Shown: positions 3,193 to 30,422 of the stretch, in pieces
Numbering within the stretch: the stretch's first letter is position 1
How the letters are laid out: each line of letters opens with the position of its first letter
From: a virus
DNA length: 33,155 nt
Virus record (IMG/VR): IMGVR_UViG_3300010403_000043
Coordinates: 1-33,155 of that record
Direction: 5' to 3' (one strand)
Translations under genes and position numbers: made by a program
The notes under the pieces: model-generated
Told to the model about the DNA's origin: nothing
Databases searched by the model: none
What the model saw: the letters and a program-made list of their open reading frames with translations, nothing else

Positions 3193-3914
3193 AACCGATC
3201 GGCCCGCTCTTTAAATGGTTTGGGTCTAAGTGGCTTTCGGCGCGGCTGCTACCACCGCCCGAGCATGATACGATCGTCGAGCCGTTTGCGGGGTCGGCCG
3301 GTTACTCTCTCCGGCACGCGGATCGTAGGGTTATCCTTTGCGAGATTAACCCTCTCGTCGGCTTGCTCTGGTCGTGGTTGATCGACACCGCAACCGAGCA
3401 GGCGATAAAGGACATTCCGATCAACGTACCGGAAGGGACGGATATCCGCTCGCTTGGCCTGTCTCAGGGTCAAGCCTTGCTCCTAAAGCACTGGCAACGG
3501 ACTAATAACGTAGGGGATTGCTGGACGATTAGCCCATGGGGTAACAAGCCCGGACAGTGGACCGCCAACACCCGGGCGCGAGTGGCGGAAGAAGTCCAAG
3601 CGGTCAAGCATTGGCACATTCGGGCGGATGGTATCCTTTACATGTCTCGCGGCCATTGGCCCTCGACTTGGTTTATCGATCCGCCCTATAAGTATAATTA
3701 CACTTACAAGAGTGATCCGATTGATTATGACACTTTGGCCGGTCTGATTCGGGTGTTACAAGGGCAGAAAATCGTTTGCGAGGCTGCCTGTCCCAAAACC
3801 GGGCGCATACCCGATTGGCTTCCGTTTCAGCCGTTCGGGGAGCGGATTACCTCACGTCGTAAGGTTGGCGAGCACACCCATAGCCGAGAGCTAATCTGGC
3901 ATGATCGCTCTTGA
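3189..3914 (+). CDS. D12-class N6-adenine DNA methyltransferase (Dam-like)
   Basis: This 241-residue protein transfers a methyl group from S-adenosylmethionine to adenine N6. Visible motifs are FKWFGSK at residues 8-14 and EPFAGSAGY at 31-39 (SAM binding, motif I) and the catalytic DPPY at 164-167, in the order expected for the D12/Dam group. It is slightly shorter than E. coli Dam. The ATG at 3189 is preferred to an upstream in-frame start at 3078 because it overlaps the previous stop and puts FKWFGSK at the N-terminus, as in the family. A phage-borne methylase could protect DNA from host restriction or mark it for regulation. The target site cannot be read from the sequence. The C-terminus overlaps the polymerase start by 14 bases. 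Confidence 0.85.
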   Translation: MKPIGPLFKWFGSKWLSARLLPPPEHDTIVEPFAGSAGYSLRHADRRVILCEINPLVGLLWSWLIDTATEQAIKDIPINVPEGTDIRSLGLSQGQALLLKHWQRTNNVGDCWTISPWGNKPGQWTANTRARVAEEVQAVKHWHIRADGILYMSRGHWPSTWFIDPPYKYNYTYKSDPIDYDTLAGLIRVLQGQKIVCEAACPKTGRIPDWLPFQPFGERITSRRKVGEHTHSRELIWHDRS

Positions 3915-5718
3915 CACTGAAACGAACCTAATTCGGCCCGGATGCCAGCTGCCTCCGCTGGTGTGCGTTTCGGTGTCCAACGGCTCGACCCTCGCCGATG
4001 TCTTACCGTGGACATCGGCGAGGGATACCGTCGAAGCGTTCTTGTCGACCATGCCGCTATGTGGCTTGAACGTGGCTTTTGATATGGGTGTCATTATGGC
4101 CCAGTGGCCGGAGATGATTCCCCTAGTCTTCCGGGCCTATGACGAGGATAGGGTAACCGATGTCGGAACACGACAAAAGCTACTCGATATCCGAGATGGT
4201 AAGCGGACGTGGCAGGAAGACGAAGAGACGGCCCAGGTCCGAAAGTCGACGTACGGACTCGACGCGCTAGCCCAACGCTTGCTAGGCCGGAAGCTCGCTA
4301 AGGACAGCGGCATACAGCTCACGTTCGAGCAATTAAGGGCGGTGCCCTTTGAGTCCTGGCCAGCGCTGGCGGTGGACTACTCGCGCGATGATGCGCTTGC
4401 GACTTGGCAGATTTGGGCCGTGCAGGAGCGGCGCGCCGACCACCTAGCGGACCAGTATCGGCAGGCCCGGGCCGCCCTGTTCTTGATGCTCGCCCGAGCG
4501 TGGGGGCTCGTGCCCGATCCGACGGCCGTGCGGTTGTTTAAGGAGCGCGTGCAGCGGGAATTTGACGAGTGCGGCGCGACCCTGCGCACGCTCGGCTTGG
4601 TGCGGTCCGACGGTTCGCGGAACATGTCGCTTGTAAAGGACCGCATCCTAGGGGCCTATCAGGCCCGGGGGATGATGCCGCCTATGACCGAGAAGAGCGG
4701 CCCGAAAACCGACCGCGAGACGTGCGAGATGGCGGGCGACCTGATGCTCGACGTGTATGCGACGTTTAGCAAGCTTCGGTCGGTCATAGGCAAAGATTTC
4801 AAGATCCTTGATATGCCTATCATTCACTCCCGATTTGAGGAATTGGTTGAGAACGGCCGGACCGCGAGCACGAAACCCAACGTCCAAAATTTCGCTGTGG
4901 ACGGGGGTATGCGCGAGTGTTTCCACCCGCGGCCGGGGTGCGCCTATGTCGTGGCGGACTATGGTGGTTTCGAGCTCAGCACGTTCGCGCAAGTCTGTTA
5001 CACACTGCTCGGACACTCGACGCTGAGGGACATCCTCCTACGCGGGGAAGACGCACACCTAAGGCTCGCCGAGCGTATACTACGCCGGCCGTACGAAGAG
5101 CTTAAAGCTATCAAGGCCGCGGGATCGGATCATCCCGAGTATGAAACGGTTAACCACGCTAGGCAAACCGGCAAGGTTGGCAATTTCGGTTTCATGGGCG
5201 GGGCCGGAGCAAAGCGTGTAGCGGATGAGGGCCGGAAGAAATATCAAGTCAACATGACCGAGAACGAAGCGCGCCAGCTGAAACAGGTGTGGCTCGGCAT
5301 GGTGCCCGAAGCGGGGCAATACTTCCAATGGGTCGACAATCACGGCGGCACTGTAGAGCAATTGTTTTCCGGTCGAGTGCGGAACGGTTGCGGGTTCACT
5401 GACGCGTGTAACTCGCCCTTCTCAGGCCTCGCGGCGGACTGTGCAAAGGATGCCGGATATCATATCGCGAGGGCGCAGTATATGGGCGAGATGGTTGCGC
5501 GGACGGTGAATTTCGTACACGATGAATTTGTACTAGAGACGCCGCTCGATTGCATTGACGACACCGCGCACAAGCTGGAAGCCATCATGCTCGACGCGGC
5601 CCGGCGCTGGATTCCGGACGTGCCCTGCTCGGTCGAAGTCTTGGCAACGATGGCCTATAGCAAGAAAGCAAAACGCATTGTGAGAGAGGGAAGGCTCGTG
5701 CCATGGCAACCTACGTAA
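3901..5718 (+). CDS. polA: DNA polymerase I, family A, with 3'-5' exonuclease domain
   Basis: The protein has 605 residues and no 5'-3' exonuclease domain, as usual for phage replicative family A enzymes. Exonuclease motifs: LDTET at residues 4-8 (Exo I), NVAFD ending at 61 (Exo II), and YSRDD at 160-164 (Exo III). Polymerase motif A is ADYGGFELS with D353 and E358, motif B is RQTGKVGNFGFMGG from R421 with K425 and F429, and motif C is VHDEF with H540, D541 and E542. Both metal-binding aspartates are present. Motif A and the O-helix diverge from the E. coli consensus (see findings). It presumably copies the phage genome together with the upstream helicase and the DUF669-like protein. Confidence 0.93.
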   Translation: MIALDTETNLIRPGCQLPPLVCVSVSNGSTLADVLPWTSARDTVEAFLSTMPLCGLNVAFDMGVIMAQWPEMIPLVFRAYDEDRVTDVGTRQKLLDIRDGKRTWQEDEETAQVRKSTYGLDALAQRLLGRKLAKDSGIQLTFEQLRAVPFESWPALAVDYSRDDALATWQIWAVQERRADHLADQYRQARAALFLMLARAWGLVPDPTAVRLFKERVQREFDECGATLRTLGLVRSDGSRNMSLVKDRILGAYQARGMMPPMTEKSGPKTDRETCEMAGDLMLDVYATFSKLRSVIGKDFKILDMPIIHSRFEELVENGRTASTKPNVQNFAVDGGMRECFHPRPGCAYVVADYGGFELSTFAQVCYTLLGHSTLRDILLRGEDAHLRLAERILRRPYEELKAIKAAGSDHPEYETVNHARQTGKVGNFGFMGGAGAKRVADEGRKKYQVNMTENEARQLKQVWLGMVPEAGQYFQWVDNHGGTVEQLFSGRVRNGCGFTDACNSPFSGLAADCAKDAGYHIARAQYMGEMVARTVNFVHDEFVLETPLDCIDDTAHKLEAIMLDAARRWIPDVPCSVEVLATMAYSKKAKRIVREGRLVPWQPT

Positions 5719-19794: not shown

Positions 19795-20105
19795 TGCCTT
19801 CCCGGGGGAGCCAAGACGATCTAGAAGTGTATAAACTTCTGGTCGAAATCAAAGAAGATATCGGCGAACTAACCGGTACCATCCGCGCGCATATCCAACA
19901 CGATCAAGAGTCTTTCGCCCGCCTTACGGAACGATTGGACCGCCTAGAAACGGCCCGAGCAGCGGACGCGACGGGGGCCCTTGTCGCCGTCAAGAGCGCA
20001 TCCGACAAAACGAAAGACATGCTTTGGAAGGTTGCCGGCTCGGTCGGGCTCGCCGCCCTTGGCGCGGTCGGCGCCGTTATCGCTCACGCGTTTGGATTGA
20101 AATAG
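19794..20105 (+). CDS. Coiled-coil protein with C-terminal membrane anchor, holin-like candidate
   Basis: The protein has 103 residues from ATG 19794; GTG 19791 is an alternative one codon upstream. Residues ~10-55 form a charged heptad-like helix (VEIKEDIGELTGTIRAHIQ, then LTERLDRLETARAAD). The last ~22 residues are hydrophobic (VAGSVGLAALGAVGAVIAHA), giving a tail-anchored topology similar to XhlA-type lysis-associated proteins. It could be a holin, holin partner or tail-associated membrane protein. This slot between tube and chaperone genes usually has no such gene. Confidence 0.6.
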   Translation: MPSRGSQDDLEVYKLLVEIKEDIGELTGTIRAHIQHDQESFARLTERLDRLETARAADATGALVAVKSASDKTKDMLWKVAGSVGLAALGAVGAVIAHAFGLK

Positions 20106-23696: not shown

Positions 23697-24014
23697 ATGG
23701 CGACGACCGTAATCCTTCCCGTCCCGACCGATACCCCGGACACGTCTATTCGTGTTCCGTTGGGCGATGTTGATTACATCGTCCGCCTGAACTATCACGA
23801 GCGCGAGGATAGGTGGTATCTCGACCTATTGACGGCTGAGAACGTGGAAATTGTTTGCGGGATTAAGCTTGTCTCGAATTGGCCGCTACTCCGCCGGTTG
23901 GTCGATATCCGCCGGCCGGGCGGCGAGCTAATCGCTTTGCGCGCGGTCGGGGACGCTCCGCCCGGTTTCTCCGACCTGGGTCGGGGCGTGCAATTGGCCT
24001 ATGTCACCTTCTAA
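23697..24014 (+). CDS. Baseplate plug protein (Pam3 gp18-like)
   Basis: The protein has 105 residues. The middle VDYIVRLNYHEREDRWYLDL followed by WPLLRRLVDIRRPGGELIAL and a final GRGVQLAYVTF is characteristic of small baseplate plug proteins that follow the Dit-like gene (Pam3 gp18-type). It likely seals the tube between Dit-like protein and hub. The 3' end overlaps the hub gene by 14 bases. Confidence 0.78.
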   Translation: MATTVILPVPTDTPDTSIRVPLGDVDYIVRLNYHEREDRWYLDLLTAENVEIVCGIKLVSNWPLLRRLVDIRRPGGELIALRAVGDAPPGFSDLGRGVQLAYVTF

Positions 24015-24861
24015 CCTACTATTCAACCGCGCATGCGCCGTTATCGTCCAAACGGACGGCGCCAAAGCGATTAAGATTGCCCCTCAGGGTGGGCAGAAGG
24101 AAGCTTTATCCGTCAAGTTTACAGTTAAAAAGGATCTGACGAGCAAGCCTAACACGGCCGAGTTGCAGATTTACAACCTATCCCCCGACACCCGTCTAGC
24201 GCTGCAAAAGCTAAAGGATGCGACGGTACAGATTGATGCAGGTTACGTCGGGAGCACGTCAACCATCTTCCTAGGCGATATGCGCACGGGGTTCGGCGCG
24301 CATACCGGACCGGACTGGATTACTACCCTATCCGCGGGCGACGGAGAGGCCAAGCTTCGGACCGCTCGAGTGCAAACCGCGCTACGGGCAGGGACGGACA
24401 TCGCAACCGTGTTCCGGGCGCTGTCGACCGCACTAGGGGTGTCCAAGGGCAACCTAGACGCCGCGGTGTCTGCCATCCAAGGCGCCGGGTTTTCGTCGCA
24501 ATTCTCCCTTGGAACGGTCCTATCAGGCTCGGCCGCGAGTGAGATGGATCGGATTACCGCGAGCGTTGATTATACGTGGTCGGTACAGGGCGGGAAGTTA
24601 CAGCTAGTCCCGAGGGGGCAAGCGCTCGCCGGAAGTGCGATTCTGTTGACCGAAAAAACCGGTATGATTGGCTCGCCGACCGTGGACAAGGATGGTGTTG
24701 TCTCGGTTAAAATGCTCATGGTTGCGGACGTTTATCCCGGCCGCAAAATAGTTTTGCAGGCGAGCGAGATAAAGGGTCAATACGCTATCCAAGAAACCGC
24801 CCACACCGGCGATACGCGCGGGCAAGACTGGTATATTGACGTCAAGGCAAAGCCTTATTGA
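24001..24861 (+). CDS. Baseplate hub protein (gp27/gp44-like)
   Basis: The protein has 286 residues, starting at ATG 24001 inside the plug gene. The N-terminal part (LSVKFTVKKDLTSKPNTAEL, then QIYNLSPDTRLALQ) and later VQIDAGYVGSTSTIFLGDM are standard hub features, with a second domain (ASVDYTWSVQGGKLQLVPRG). Hubs of this class trimerise around the spike base. The C-terminal half ends YAIQETAHTGDTRGQDWYID, another recurring hub segment. Confidence 0.8.
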   Translation: MSPSNLLFNRACAVIVQTDGAKAIKIAPQGGQKEALSVKFTVKKDLTSKPNTAELQIYNLSPDTRLALQKLKDATVQIDAGYVGSTSTIFLGDMRTGFGAHTGPDWITTLSAGDGEAKLRTARVQTALRAGTDIATVFRALSTALGVSKGNLDAAVSAIQGAGFSSQFSLGTVLSGSAASEMDRITASVDYTWSVQGGKLQLVPRGQALAGSAILLTEKTGMIGSPTVDKDGVVSVKMLMVADVYPGRKIVLQASEIKGQYAIQETAHTGDTRGQDWYIDVKAKPY

Positions 24862-24862
24862 T

Positions 24863-24943
24863 ATGCGACGAGACGACTTTGCCTATACCCTAATCGTAGG
24901 GGTTTTCGTGGTTCTAATGCTGCTACTTTTGGAGTCCAAATGA
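24863..24943 (+). CDS. 26-residue single-membrane-span small protein
   Basis: The ATG at 24863 begins one base after the hub stop (TGA 24859-24861), and the TGA at 24941-24943 overlaps the spike ATG at 24940. The product is a charged start (MRRDDFAY), a hydrophobic run of about 15 residues (TLIVGVFVVLMLLLL) and a charged end (ESK). It is a textbook minimal membrane peptide. It fills the whole hub-spike gap and is coupled to the spike gene. No family recognised. It may be a lysis, superinfection or membrane-contact peptide, all inferred. Confidence 0.6.
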   Translation: MRRDDFAYTLIVGVFVVLMLLLLESK

Positions 24944-25617
24944 GCGGCCCGGATCCGCGTCAAGTCGAAGTCTTGGACCGCGTGACGGACGCCAAAACGG
25001 CCAAGATTTGGACATCGACCCAAGGCATTATCGTTACGTACGATGCGGCCAAGATGGTTGCAGATATACAGCTAGTCTCACCATCGAAAGAACTAGCTAA
25101 AGACGGGAGTTACAAGAACGAAAAGCTTCCTATCCTGGCAGACGTTCCGGTATTGTTCCCGGGGGGTGGCGAATTCAAGCTACATTGGCCGCTCAGCGCG
25201 AACGATGAAGTATTGATCCTATGCACTAAGCAATCCCTTCGCGCGTGGTACGATCAAGGCAAAGTCGGACTTGATCCAATCGACCCGAGGAACCATCATC
25301 TAGCGCACGCGCTCGCGATTCCGATCCTGGGCCGAGTGCCCCCGACGGTGGACCCGGACGGCGCGGTTGTGCTAGAGTGCTCGCTTGTCAAGATCGGTGA
25401 CCCGACCACGGCCGATTTCGCGGCCCTCGCTTCAAAGGTTGACACCGCGATAGGAAATCTTGTGCTCGCGCTAACCGACCCCGCAAATTGGTCCGGCGTG
25501 ACCGGGGGCTCAGCCGTTGCAACCGCGCTAGCAGTTGCTTGGGTTCCGACGCTTCCGGGCCCGCCCGGCGCGCATCCGATCGACCCCACACCTTGTGAGA
25601 GGGTAAAGATAACGTGA
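24940..25617 (+). CDS. Baseplate spike protein, Gp138 N-terminal-like
   Basis: The protein has 225 residues. The N-terminal OB-like domain (IWTSTQGIIVTYDAAKMVAD, then LPILADVPVLFPGGGEFKLH and WPLSANDEVLILC) matches the Gp138/gp45-type central spike fold. A later block HHLAHALAIPILGRVPP and the segment VVLECSLVKIGDP precede a helical/Ala-rich tail with a Pro/Gly end. It should form the trimeric membrane-piercing tip. The position after the hub gene is canonical. Confidence 0.82.
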   Translation: MSGPDPRQVEVLDRVTDAKTAKIWTSTQGIIVTYDAAKMVADIQLVSPSKELAKDGSYKNEKLPILADVPVLFPGGGEFKLHWPLSANDEVLILCTKQSLRAWYDQGKVGLDPIDPRNHHLAHALAIPILGRVPPTVDPDGAVVLECSLVKIGDPTTADFAALASKVDTAIGNLVLALTDPANWSGVTGGSAVATALAVAWVPTLPGPPGAHPIDPTPCERVKIT

Positions 25618-28509: not shown

Positions 28510-29775
28510 ATGAGCGTCGGAGATTACGTTACCGAAAACGGTTTGGTTTTGCCGAACCTAACCGACGTTATGGCCGACGTTTCGGACCAACAAAAGGCGG
28601 CTATCGATCCGAACCTGGACACGTCGCCTGAATCCCCTATCGGACAGTTTAACGGTATCTTCCTCGCCGCCCTACGCGACGCGTTCGAAACCCTAACGAT
28701 TGCCTATAACGGTTTTAACCCTGACGCGGCCGAGGATTTCCTACTTGAAGGAACCGCCGCGATTACCGGTACCATCCGAGCCGCCGCTACGTTCTCCCGT
28801 TTCACTCTGCTAACCGAGCAAACCGGAAAGAAACTAAAGCTAACGCTAGAGGCGAATAAGACAGTCTCGGCCGGAACCATCATCGCACAAGAGGGAAACA
28901 CTCAGGTTCAATTCGTCACGACGGAAGACGTTTCAAGTACGACCGCGGGCGATTACTACGCCGCGGCTAGGTGCGCCGTTACCGGTCCGGTCGCCTGCAA
29001 CGCTGGAACGCTAACCGTTATCCAAACCCCAGTCTCCGGCTTGACGGCGGTCACGAATGAATTCGACGCTATTCTCGGCCGCAACGTGGACACGGACGAA
29101 GAATTGCGCGCCCGCCGCGTTGACGAATTGCACGGACAGGGTACTAGCGCGGTCGATGCTGTCGCGTCTCTACTCGCGGCAATTGAGTTGCCGGACGGCT
29201 CGAAGCCTATCCAAGACGTCTCGGTGGTTGAGAATGCAACCGACTATCCGGACGCTTTGGGGCGTCCACCTCATTGCATCGAAGCTATCATCTATGACGG
29301 CGAGGGCTTGGACTGCCCGAACGATACGATCGCGCAAGTCCTATGGGATGCACACGCGGGCGGGATCCGAACCTACGGAATGACAACCGGCATTGCCGTG
29401 GACAAGAACGGCGCGGACCAATTAATGCACTTCAATCGGCCAGCACTCCGGCCGATCAAGATCCAAATTGACCTTACCGCCGGCCCAGACTACGCGGGCG
29501 ACGATCTAGTCAAGAGCGCAATTGAAAGTATCTTCCTCGCGACCCGGCAACGTATGGGAGTCGCGAACCGCGCGATTGAGGCGCTACTCTTTGCAGCTAT
29601 CCTAGACCGCAGCAACCTAACCGACAACCTGGGCTCAGGGGTTAAGGGTGTTACCCGTATCTCCAGCATCAAGATCCAATTCGTTGGATCGTCCTATCCT
29701 GCAAGCTATGTCGACCTAGCGATCAATCCTCGCGACCTTCCCACACTCGACACAAGCGACATTGAAATCCTATGA
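28510..29775 (+). CDS. Baseplate J/gp47-like wedge protein
   Basis: The protein has 421 residues. Segments such as DLDTSPESPIGQF-type (DPNLDTSPESPIGQFNGIFL), then LTIAYNGFNPDAAEDFLLE and the middle GRNVDTDEELRARRVDELHG are the expected J/gp47 pattern. It builds the baseplate periphery that triggers sheath contraction. The order gp46-gp47-DUF2612 is standard, except for the lysozyme gene inserted after it. Confidence 0.88.
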   Translation: MSVGDYVTENGLVLPNLTDVMADVSDQQKAAIDPNLDTSPESPIGQFNGIFLAALRDAFETLTIAYNGFNPDAAEDFLLEGTAAITGTIRAAATFSRFTLLTEQTGKKLKLTLEANKTVSAGTIIAQEGNTQVQFVTTEDVSSTTAGDYYAAARCAVTGPVACNAGTLTVIQTPVSGLTAVTNEFDAILGRNVDTDEELRARRVDELHGQGTSAVDAVASLLAAIELPDGSKPIQDVSVVENATDYPDALGRPPHCIEAIIYDGEGLDCPNDTIAQVLWDAHAGGIRTYGMTTGIAVDKNGADQLMHFNRPALRPIKIQIDLTAGPDYAGDDLVKSAIESIFLATRQRMGVANRAIEALLFAAILDRSNLTDNLGSGVKGVTRISSIKIQFVGSSYPASYVDLAINPRDLPTLDTSDIEIL

Positions 29776-30422
29776 ATAACCTGCGTCTATCCGATACCGG
29801 TCTATCATTCATCGCCCGCTGGGAAGGCTTTATCGGCCACGTGTACAACGACGTCGGAGGTAAAGCGACGGTGGGTTACGGCCACCTAGTCCTACCAGGC
29901 GAGCATTTCACAACGCTAACCCAAGCTCAGGGTTTGGACCTACTCCGGCAAGACGTCGGAAAGGCAGAGCACGCGGTCAACTCACTCGTCAACGTCCCCC
30001 TAGTCCAACGTCAATTTGACGCGCTCGTTTCGTTCGTTTTCAATGTCGGATCGGGCATTAATGGTTTCGCCGGCTCGACCTTGCTCCGCCTACTAAACCG
30101 CGGAGACTACTCCGGCGCCGCGTCGCAATTCACCCTTTGGGACCACGTTGGCGGGGTAGAAAATGCCGGGCTGCTCGCGCGGCGTCAGGCGGAGAAAGCG
30201 ATGTTTGGAGGCTTGCCCGACCTGTCCACGACTCGCGGTGTGCAAACCGCTCTTAATCTGCTAGGTTGGAAGCCGGCGCTGGCGGAAGATGATAAACTCG
30301 GACCGCTTACGAAAGCGGCCATCACGTCATGGCAGGCCGCGCATGGGTTGGACGATGATGGCAAGCCGGGCCCTAAGACACGCGCTGCACTTGCTCTCGC
30401 GCTGGCAAAATTGGGCACTTGA
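29772..30422 (+). CDS. GH24 endolysin with peptidoglycan-binding domain
   Basis: The protein has 216 residues. The N-terminal lysozyme domain carries the Glu-8-Asp-5-Thr triad: WEGF (E18), YND (D27) and GGKAT (T33), followed by VGYGH. The helix VQRQFDALVSFVFNVGSG is also diagnostic. Residues ~150-216 form a PG_binding_1-type domain (TTRGVQTALNLLGW, then PLTKAAITSWQAAHGLDDDG). It cleaves peptidoglycan, either at lysis or as a virion-associated enzyme. No signal peptide or SAR helix is visible, so a holin would be needed for lysis. It sits within the baseplate cluster, an uncommon position. Confidence 0.9.
   Translation: MNNLRLSDTGLSFIARWEGFIGHVYNDVGGKATVGYGHLVLPGEHFTTLTQAQGLDLLRQDVGKAEHAVNSLVNVPLVQRQFDALVSFVFNVGSGINGFAGSTLLRLLNRGDYSGAASQFTLWDHVGGVENAGLLARRQAEKAMFGGLPDLSTTRGVQTALNLLGWKPALAEDDKLGPLTKAAITSWQAAHGLDDDGKPGPKTRAALALALAKLGT

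Follow-up and report, generated by a model that had tools for sequence, protein, structure and literature searches.

Does the narrow interval between the baseplate hub and spike genes of this phage hold a gene of its own, and if so, what would its product do? The window analysed here, a 33,155-base virus record taken at its full length, has the gene content of a small contractile-tailed phage. Profile and family scans identified terminase, portal and capsid genes, the sheath, the tape measure, a Dit-like protein, a plug of the Pam3 gp18 family and baseplate wedge proteins. The window is an incomplete fragment, with a fibre ORF that runs open at its 3' end, and no integrase family was found among the window proteins scanned. 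The features at the junction are the following:

24001..24861, plus strand: baseplate hub gene, 286 aa (PHROG 196, E 2.8e-61; Pfam E217_GP41; E217 gp41 family)
24859..24865, plus strand: stop-start junction read from the sequence, with the hub stop TGA (24859-24861), a T at 24862 and the micro-ORF ATG at 24863
24863..24943, plus strand: micro-ORF, 26 aa, MRRDDFAYTLIVGVFVVLMLLLLESK, predicted single-pass membrane peptide
24878..24934, plus strand: predicted membrane helix, best 19-residue segment FAYTLIVGVFVVLMLLLLE (Kyte-Doolittle mean of 2.84 over 17 residues; insertion score)
24940..25617, plus strand: baseplate spike gene, 225 aa (PF18352, E 9.4e-20; aligned with the spikes of loci L013-L016)

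The initial annotation had described a short ORF that exactly fills the gap between hub and spike and shares an ATGA with the spike start. Its coordinates and sequence are correct; the spike starts with ATG at 24940 and thereby overlaps the micro-ORF stop TGA (24941-24943). The flanking genes had also been named properly, as PHROG 196 and E217_GP41 agree with the hub, and PF18352 and tblastn with the spike. The hub scores 30.3 bits against Pfam E217_GP41, above the cut-off of 27, and is 48-52% identical to its nearest IMG/VR relatives. The spike matches proteins annotated 'baseplate spike' in tblastn searches. The peptide has the layout MRRDD-FAYTLIVGVFVVLMLLLL-ESK, that is, a hydrophobic core with charges at both ends, and the membrane helix with charged ends that had been proposed agrees with prediction, since the core is more hydrophobic than that of any other among 500 ORFs in the window.

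In the initial annotation, the peptide was associated with the membrane-piercing spike, and it was asked whether related phages conserve a transmembrane micro-ORF at this place. We compared 214 readable related junctions, for which IMG/VR was scanned with profiles made from hub alignments, GTDB genomes were scanned once, and annotated phage records were added. The micro-ORF is not conserved. Hub and spike abut in 188 of the 214 junctions, with the spike start at most 15 nt from the hub stop and often with an ATGA overlap. This includes all 11 closest relatives (L013-L017, L093-L097 and L120), with hubs 37-52% identical to the window hub, in which the junction measures -4 to +3 nt and leaves no room for a gene. 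L014 even has the identical TATTGATATG string, the ATG of which is there the direct hub-to-spike start. Because the relatives abut and the spike of the window aligns with theirs from its own ATG, about 78 nt have been gained in the lineage of the window. Junctions without any ORF were what the initial annotation had named as a refutation. With respect to conservation this applies, yet such junctions show that the ORF is restricted to one lineage, and do not show that there is no gene here.

The related loci that were searched yielded no homologue of the peptide, the best match of a relaxed tblastn search (E 1.1) being antisense and at chance level. Single-protein scans for closer relatives found none with the hub or the spike and one, at 35% identity, with the terminase. 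The IMG/VR profile scans recovered hubs that are at most 52% identical, and the GTDB scan only two distant prophages.

The comparison bears directly on the reading that the initial annotation had put first, according to which the peptide is a membrane part associated with the spike and serves in genome entry. Only the position beside the spike speaks for it. The closest relatives carry the same hub, spike and baseplate genes without the micro-ORF, and the spike machinery therefore works without the peptide; a conserved component of the spike would be present at related junctions, and there it is absent. The lineage restriction thus argues against a role in entry, which we regard as very improbable. 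What the analysis supports is a membrane-peptide gene between hub and spike, and not its tie to the spike.

The micro-ORF could also be a piece of a neighbouring gene. A misannotated N-terminus of the spike was rejected on the basis of the spike alignment, in which the relatives start at the same ATG. A C-terminal extension or frameshift product of the hub was discarded as well: the micro-ORF is in the +1 frame relative to the hub, the hubs of relatives terminate at the corresponding position, and no slippery heptamer was seen by eye near 24936-24943. The frame shared by hub and spike is also open across the gap (YATRRLCLYPNRRGFRGSNAATFGVQ), but has no start codon. A duplication was considered too, but nothing in the rest of the window or in the DNA of the relatives matched above chance, and neither similar DNA nor a similar peptide was detected in the rest of the window.

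Is the ORF then a product of chance? With the ATG given, 26 open codons occur in 50% of Markov-generated sequences and in 28% of shuffles of the gap, so that openness alone proves nothing, and the signal has to be sought in the hydrophobicity together with the flush fit. The six frames of the window contain 500 ORFs with 20 aa or more, and none of the others equals the micro-ORF in its best 17-residue Kyte-Doolittle mean of 2.84; the runner-up is an antisense ORF at 2.35. Among 5,962 mechanical ORFs of 20-40 aa from the window and the related loci, two reach 2.83, the micro-ORF itself counted. The summed insertion score of the 19-residue helix segment is -1.15. Such hydrophobicity was found in none of the open Markov nulls and in 0.014% (1.4e-4) of the open composition-matched gap shuffles. 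The threshold in these comparisons was the observed value, and the ORF had originally been picked for its hydrophobicity; in our judgement the chance level is better taken as roughly 1e-3 than 1e-4.

If the ORF were fortuitous, the 78 nt would be a lineage-specific spacer that at most gives the spike a Shine-Dalgarno of its own, uncoupled from the hub. The frequency of open frames among the nulls fits this explanation, and so does a neutral synonymous codon usage (22% of in-frame windows are lower, and 27% of off-frame windows higher). There is no homologue, a strong Shine-Dalgarno for the spike sits inside the insert, and four related junctions (L027, L029, L053 and L201) have short gaps of 30-41 nt that no ORF fills. 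However, hydrophobicity at the 1e-4 level and a flush fit at both ends are unexpected of a spacer. We therefore hold a chance ORF to be unlikely, if still a serious contender. Conservation or dN/dS lend no support to coding, as the related loci collected contain no homologue. The micro-ORF is probably a real gene, an add-on private to its own lineage, and we are fairly confident that its peptide is translated and inserted into a membrane.

Two further features bear on translation at the junction:

24931..24934, plus strand: Shine-Dalgarno GGAG of the spike, inside the last codons of the micro-ORF (duplex of -5.9 kcal/mol)
24845..24884, plus strand: 8-bp perfect inverted repeat AGGCAAAG...CTTTGCCT around the hub stop and the micro-ORF start, identified by folding

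The Shine-Dalgarno of the micro-ORF is weak (-2.6 kcal/mol), and reinitiation after the hub stop is therefore likely. Translational coupling from the micro-ORF to the spike via the ATGA is possible, but the spike is also preceded by a good Shine-Dalgarno. The inverted repeat is a possible coupling hairpin and may equally be due to chance. The fold around it has a z-score of -2.8 against its own shuffles, and the 33 kb contain 38 such repeats, about one per 870 bp. A structured RNA element was considered and rejected, with no Rfam match and a folding energy that is ordinary for the genome.

These signals could mean that the insert is a regulatory leader, in which translation of a hydrophobic peptide, or the hairpin around its start codon, either adjusts how much spike is made or directs the spike mRNA to the membrane. 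The insert does carry the Shine-Dalgarno of the spike, and the repeat encloses both the hub stop and the micro-ORF start. Against this stand the frequency of comparable repeats, the 164 of 570 genome windows that fold equally well, the empty Rfam search, and the relatives, which control their spike dose without this one. We consider a leader function quite improbable.

The explanation that we prefer, and that we rate as somewhat probable, is that of a lineage-only small cistron for an accessory peptide acting on the host envelope rather than for a structural part of the spike. The cistron would have been inserted, in the lineage of this phage, at the point where the hub gene otherwise runs directly into the spike gene. 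Ribosomes that end the hub would reinitiate 1 nt further on, produce the 26 residues and terminate within the start of the spike. To judge from its position in the operon, the peptide would be synthesised late, along with the tail proteins, and would enter the host inner membrane as a single helix. Its function on the envelope would be that of a lysis helper, holin-like or holin-modulating, in the first place, and superinfection exclusion in the second. The analysis establishes the ORF, how flush it fits, how extreme its hydrophobicity is, the insertion in comparison with other phages and the lack of a homologue in the loci collected; translation, membrane insertion, late timing and function are all things that we infer. 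The function is placed outside the spike because the spike machinery of the relatives does without the peptide.

A role in lysis is our first choice because the peptide has one membrane helix, the endolysin has no signal anchor, and there are few other candidate membrane proteins in the window. The endolysin is encoded within the baseplate cluster:

29772-30422: GH24 endolysin with a C-terminal peptidoglycan-binding domain (Pfam)

Its top NCBIfam model is the gene transfer agent endolysin BgtA, with 104 bits, far under the cut-off of 315. The protein has no strongly hydrophobic segment, and a holin would therefore be needed. Since the window is incomplete at the 3' end, a standard holin may lie outside the fragment. 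Like small single-helix lysis peptides and class III holins, the micro-ORF product combines a hydrophobic helix, as predicted from hydrophobicity, with charged ends, in a phage with a soluble endolysin. Unlike them, it is shorter (26 residues is, to our knowledge, smaller than any lysis protein), it is encoded 4.8 kb upstream of the endolysin and not next to it, and it has no family match, neither in Pfam or PHROGs (26-aa form) nor in NCBIfam (35-aa form), a search in which a 26-aa query has little power. If the gene is real, a lysis helper is its leading candidate function, though less likely than not.

Two other proteins are of interest with respect to lysis. At 19797-20105, a 102-aa protein that begins with a charged, coiled-coil-like region and ends in a hydrophobic helix is another holin candidate. 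By eye, its layout resembles that of XhlA-type holin accessory proteins, and it has no Pfam match and no significant match in PHROGs or NCBIfam. The two closest relatives carry a 111-aa lipoprotein-like ORF (MRRHALMLLSLSIILTALVCLSC...) downstream of the baseplate genes (L013 6408-6743 and L014 6398-6733), which is possibly an outer-membrane lysis protein and has no match in the window.

Alternatively, the peptide might be directed against other phages. As a moron-like agent of superinfection exclusion or host-membrane modification, it would alter the inner membrane and block the entry of competing genomes. There are precedents in P22 SieA and HK97 gp15, inner-membrane proteins that block DNA injection (PMC10883804). 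The micro-ORF product resembles these proteins in its predicted location in the inner membrane and in being accessory to phage assembly; it differs in comprising only 26 codons, in having no promoter-like site, in being a cistron of the tail operon, and in that no exclusion is known for it. HK97 gp15 and P22 SieA come from temperate phages and are far longer than 26 aa, which counts against the analogy. Like a moron, the micro-ORF is an extra gene that is absent from the same place in relatives. It has no promoter-like site of its own, and the only terminator-like hairpin inside it is weak, with 5 bp, where 0.5 are expected by chance. In another lineage, an antisense gene for a product with a signal-like N-terminus occupies the same junction, which favours exclusion. 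The lack of a promoter-like site, the apparent late tail operon and the lack of an integrase family do not indicate expression early or in a lysogen, and altogether exclusion seems rather doubtful.

The hub-spike junction is used by other lineages for unrelated inserts. The antisense gene just mentioned is found at 13 loci of a prophage-bearing lineage (L005 3481-3939, minus strand; L126, L135, L137, L139, L141, L146, L148, L151, L154, L156, L160 and L161), among them Burkholderia phage BgManors32 and two Pseudomonas genome loci. It lies in an insert of 380-465 nt and encodes 124-152 aa with a signal-like N-terminus. All four of the antisense ORFs scanned match PHROG 38062, and a C-x-LP...CWG pattern recurs in the antisense ORFs of this lineage. 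In L069, a 57-aa ORF (3924-4097) fills the interval exactly, overlapping the hub as well as the spike by TAATG. Its N-terminus is moderately hydrophobic (Kyte-Doolittle 1.8) with an unfavourable insertion score, it has no family match, and a scan for close relatives recovered only L069 itself. Six near-identical loci (L038-L043, 3837-4041) have a 203-nt insert at the junction, nearly filled by a 61-aa basic ORF, with an overlapping 55-aa acidic ORF in another frame that shares an ATGA with the spike. In L223, 695 nt (3879-4575) separate hub and spike. An insert at a neighbouring junction is present in Aggregatibacter phage S1249 (L011 2243-2422), where a 59-aa hydrophobic-helix ORF of PHROG 4493 lies between plug and hub. 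As in the window, a small hydrophobic-helix ORF is thus inserted into the plug-hub-spike cassette of a related baseplate; it differs in its length and in its place at plug-hub and not at hub-spike, and the micro-ORF search reported no similarity to it.

It is tempting to regard the Pam3/E217-type hub-spike junction as a recurrent slot for envelope-directed cargo genes, the set comprising the 26-aa helix described here, the 57-aa ORF of L069 and the PHROG 38062 antisense ORF. The pattern is suggestive only, since these inserts share no relationship and the case for a membrane segment in L069 is weak, and we consider such a slot unlikely.

Membrane peptides of small size are familiar from phages, as are accessory genes inserted between conserved ones, and the micro-ORF is a new and unusually small candidate without homologues. 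The view of spike function is unchanged, because the relatives do without the peptide. If the micro-ORF is translated, it would be a further functional phage gene below annotation cut-offs, in a spot, flanked by core tail genes, that annotators take to be non-coding, and its product would be a very small membrane effector. Should the interpretation of the junction as a cargo slot be true as well, few phage membrane effectors would be smaller than the 26-aa peptide.
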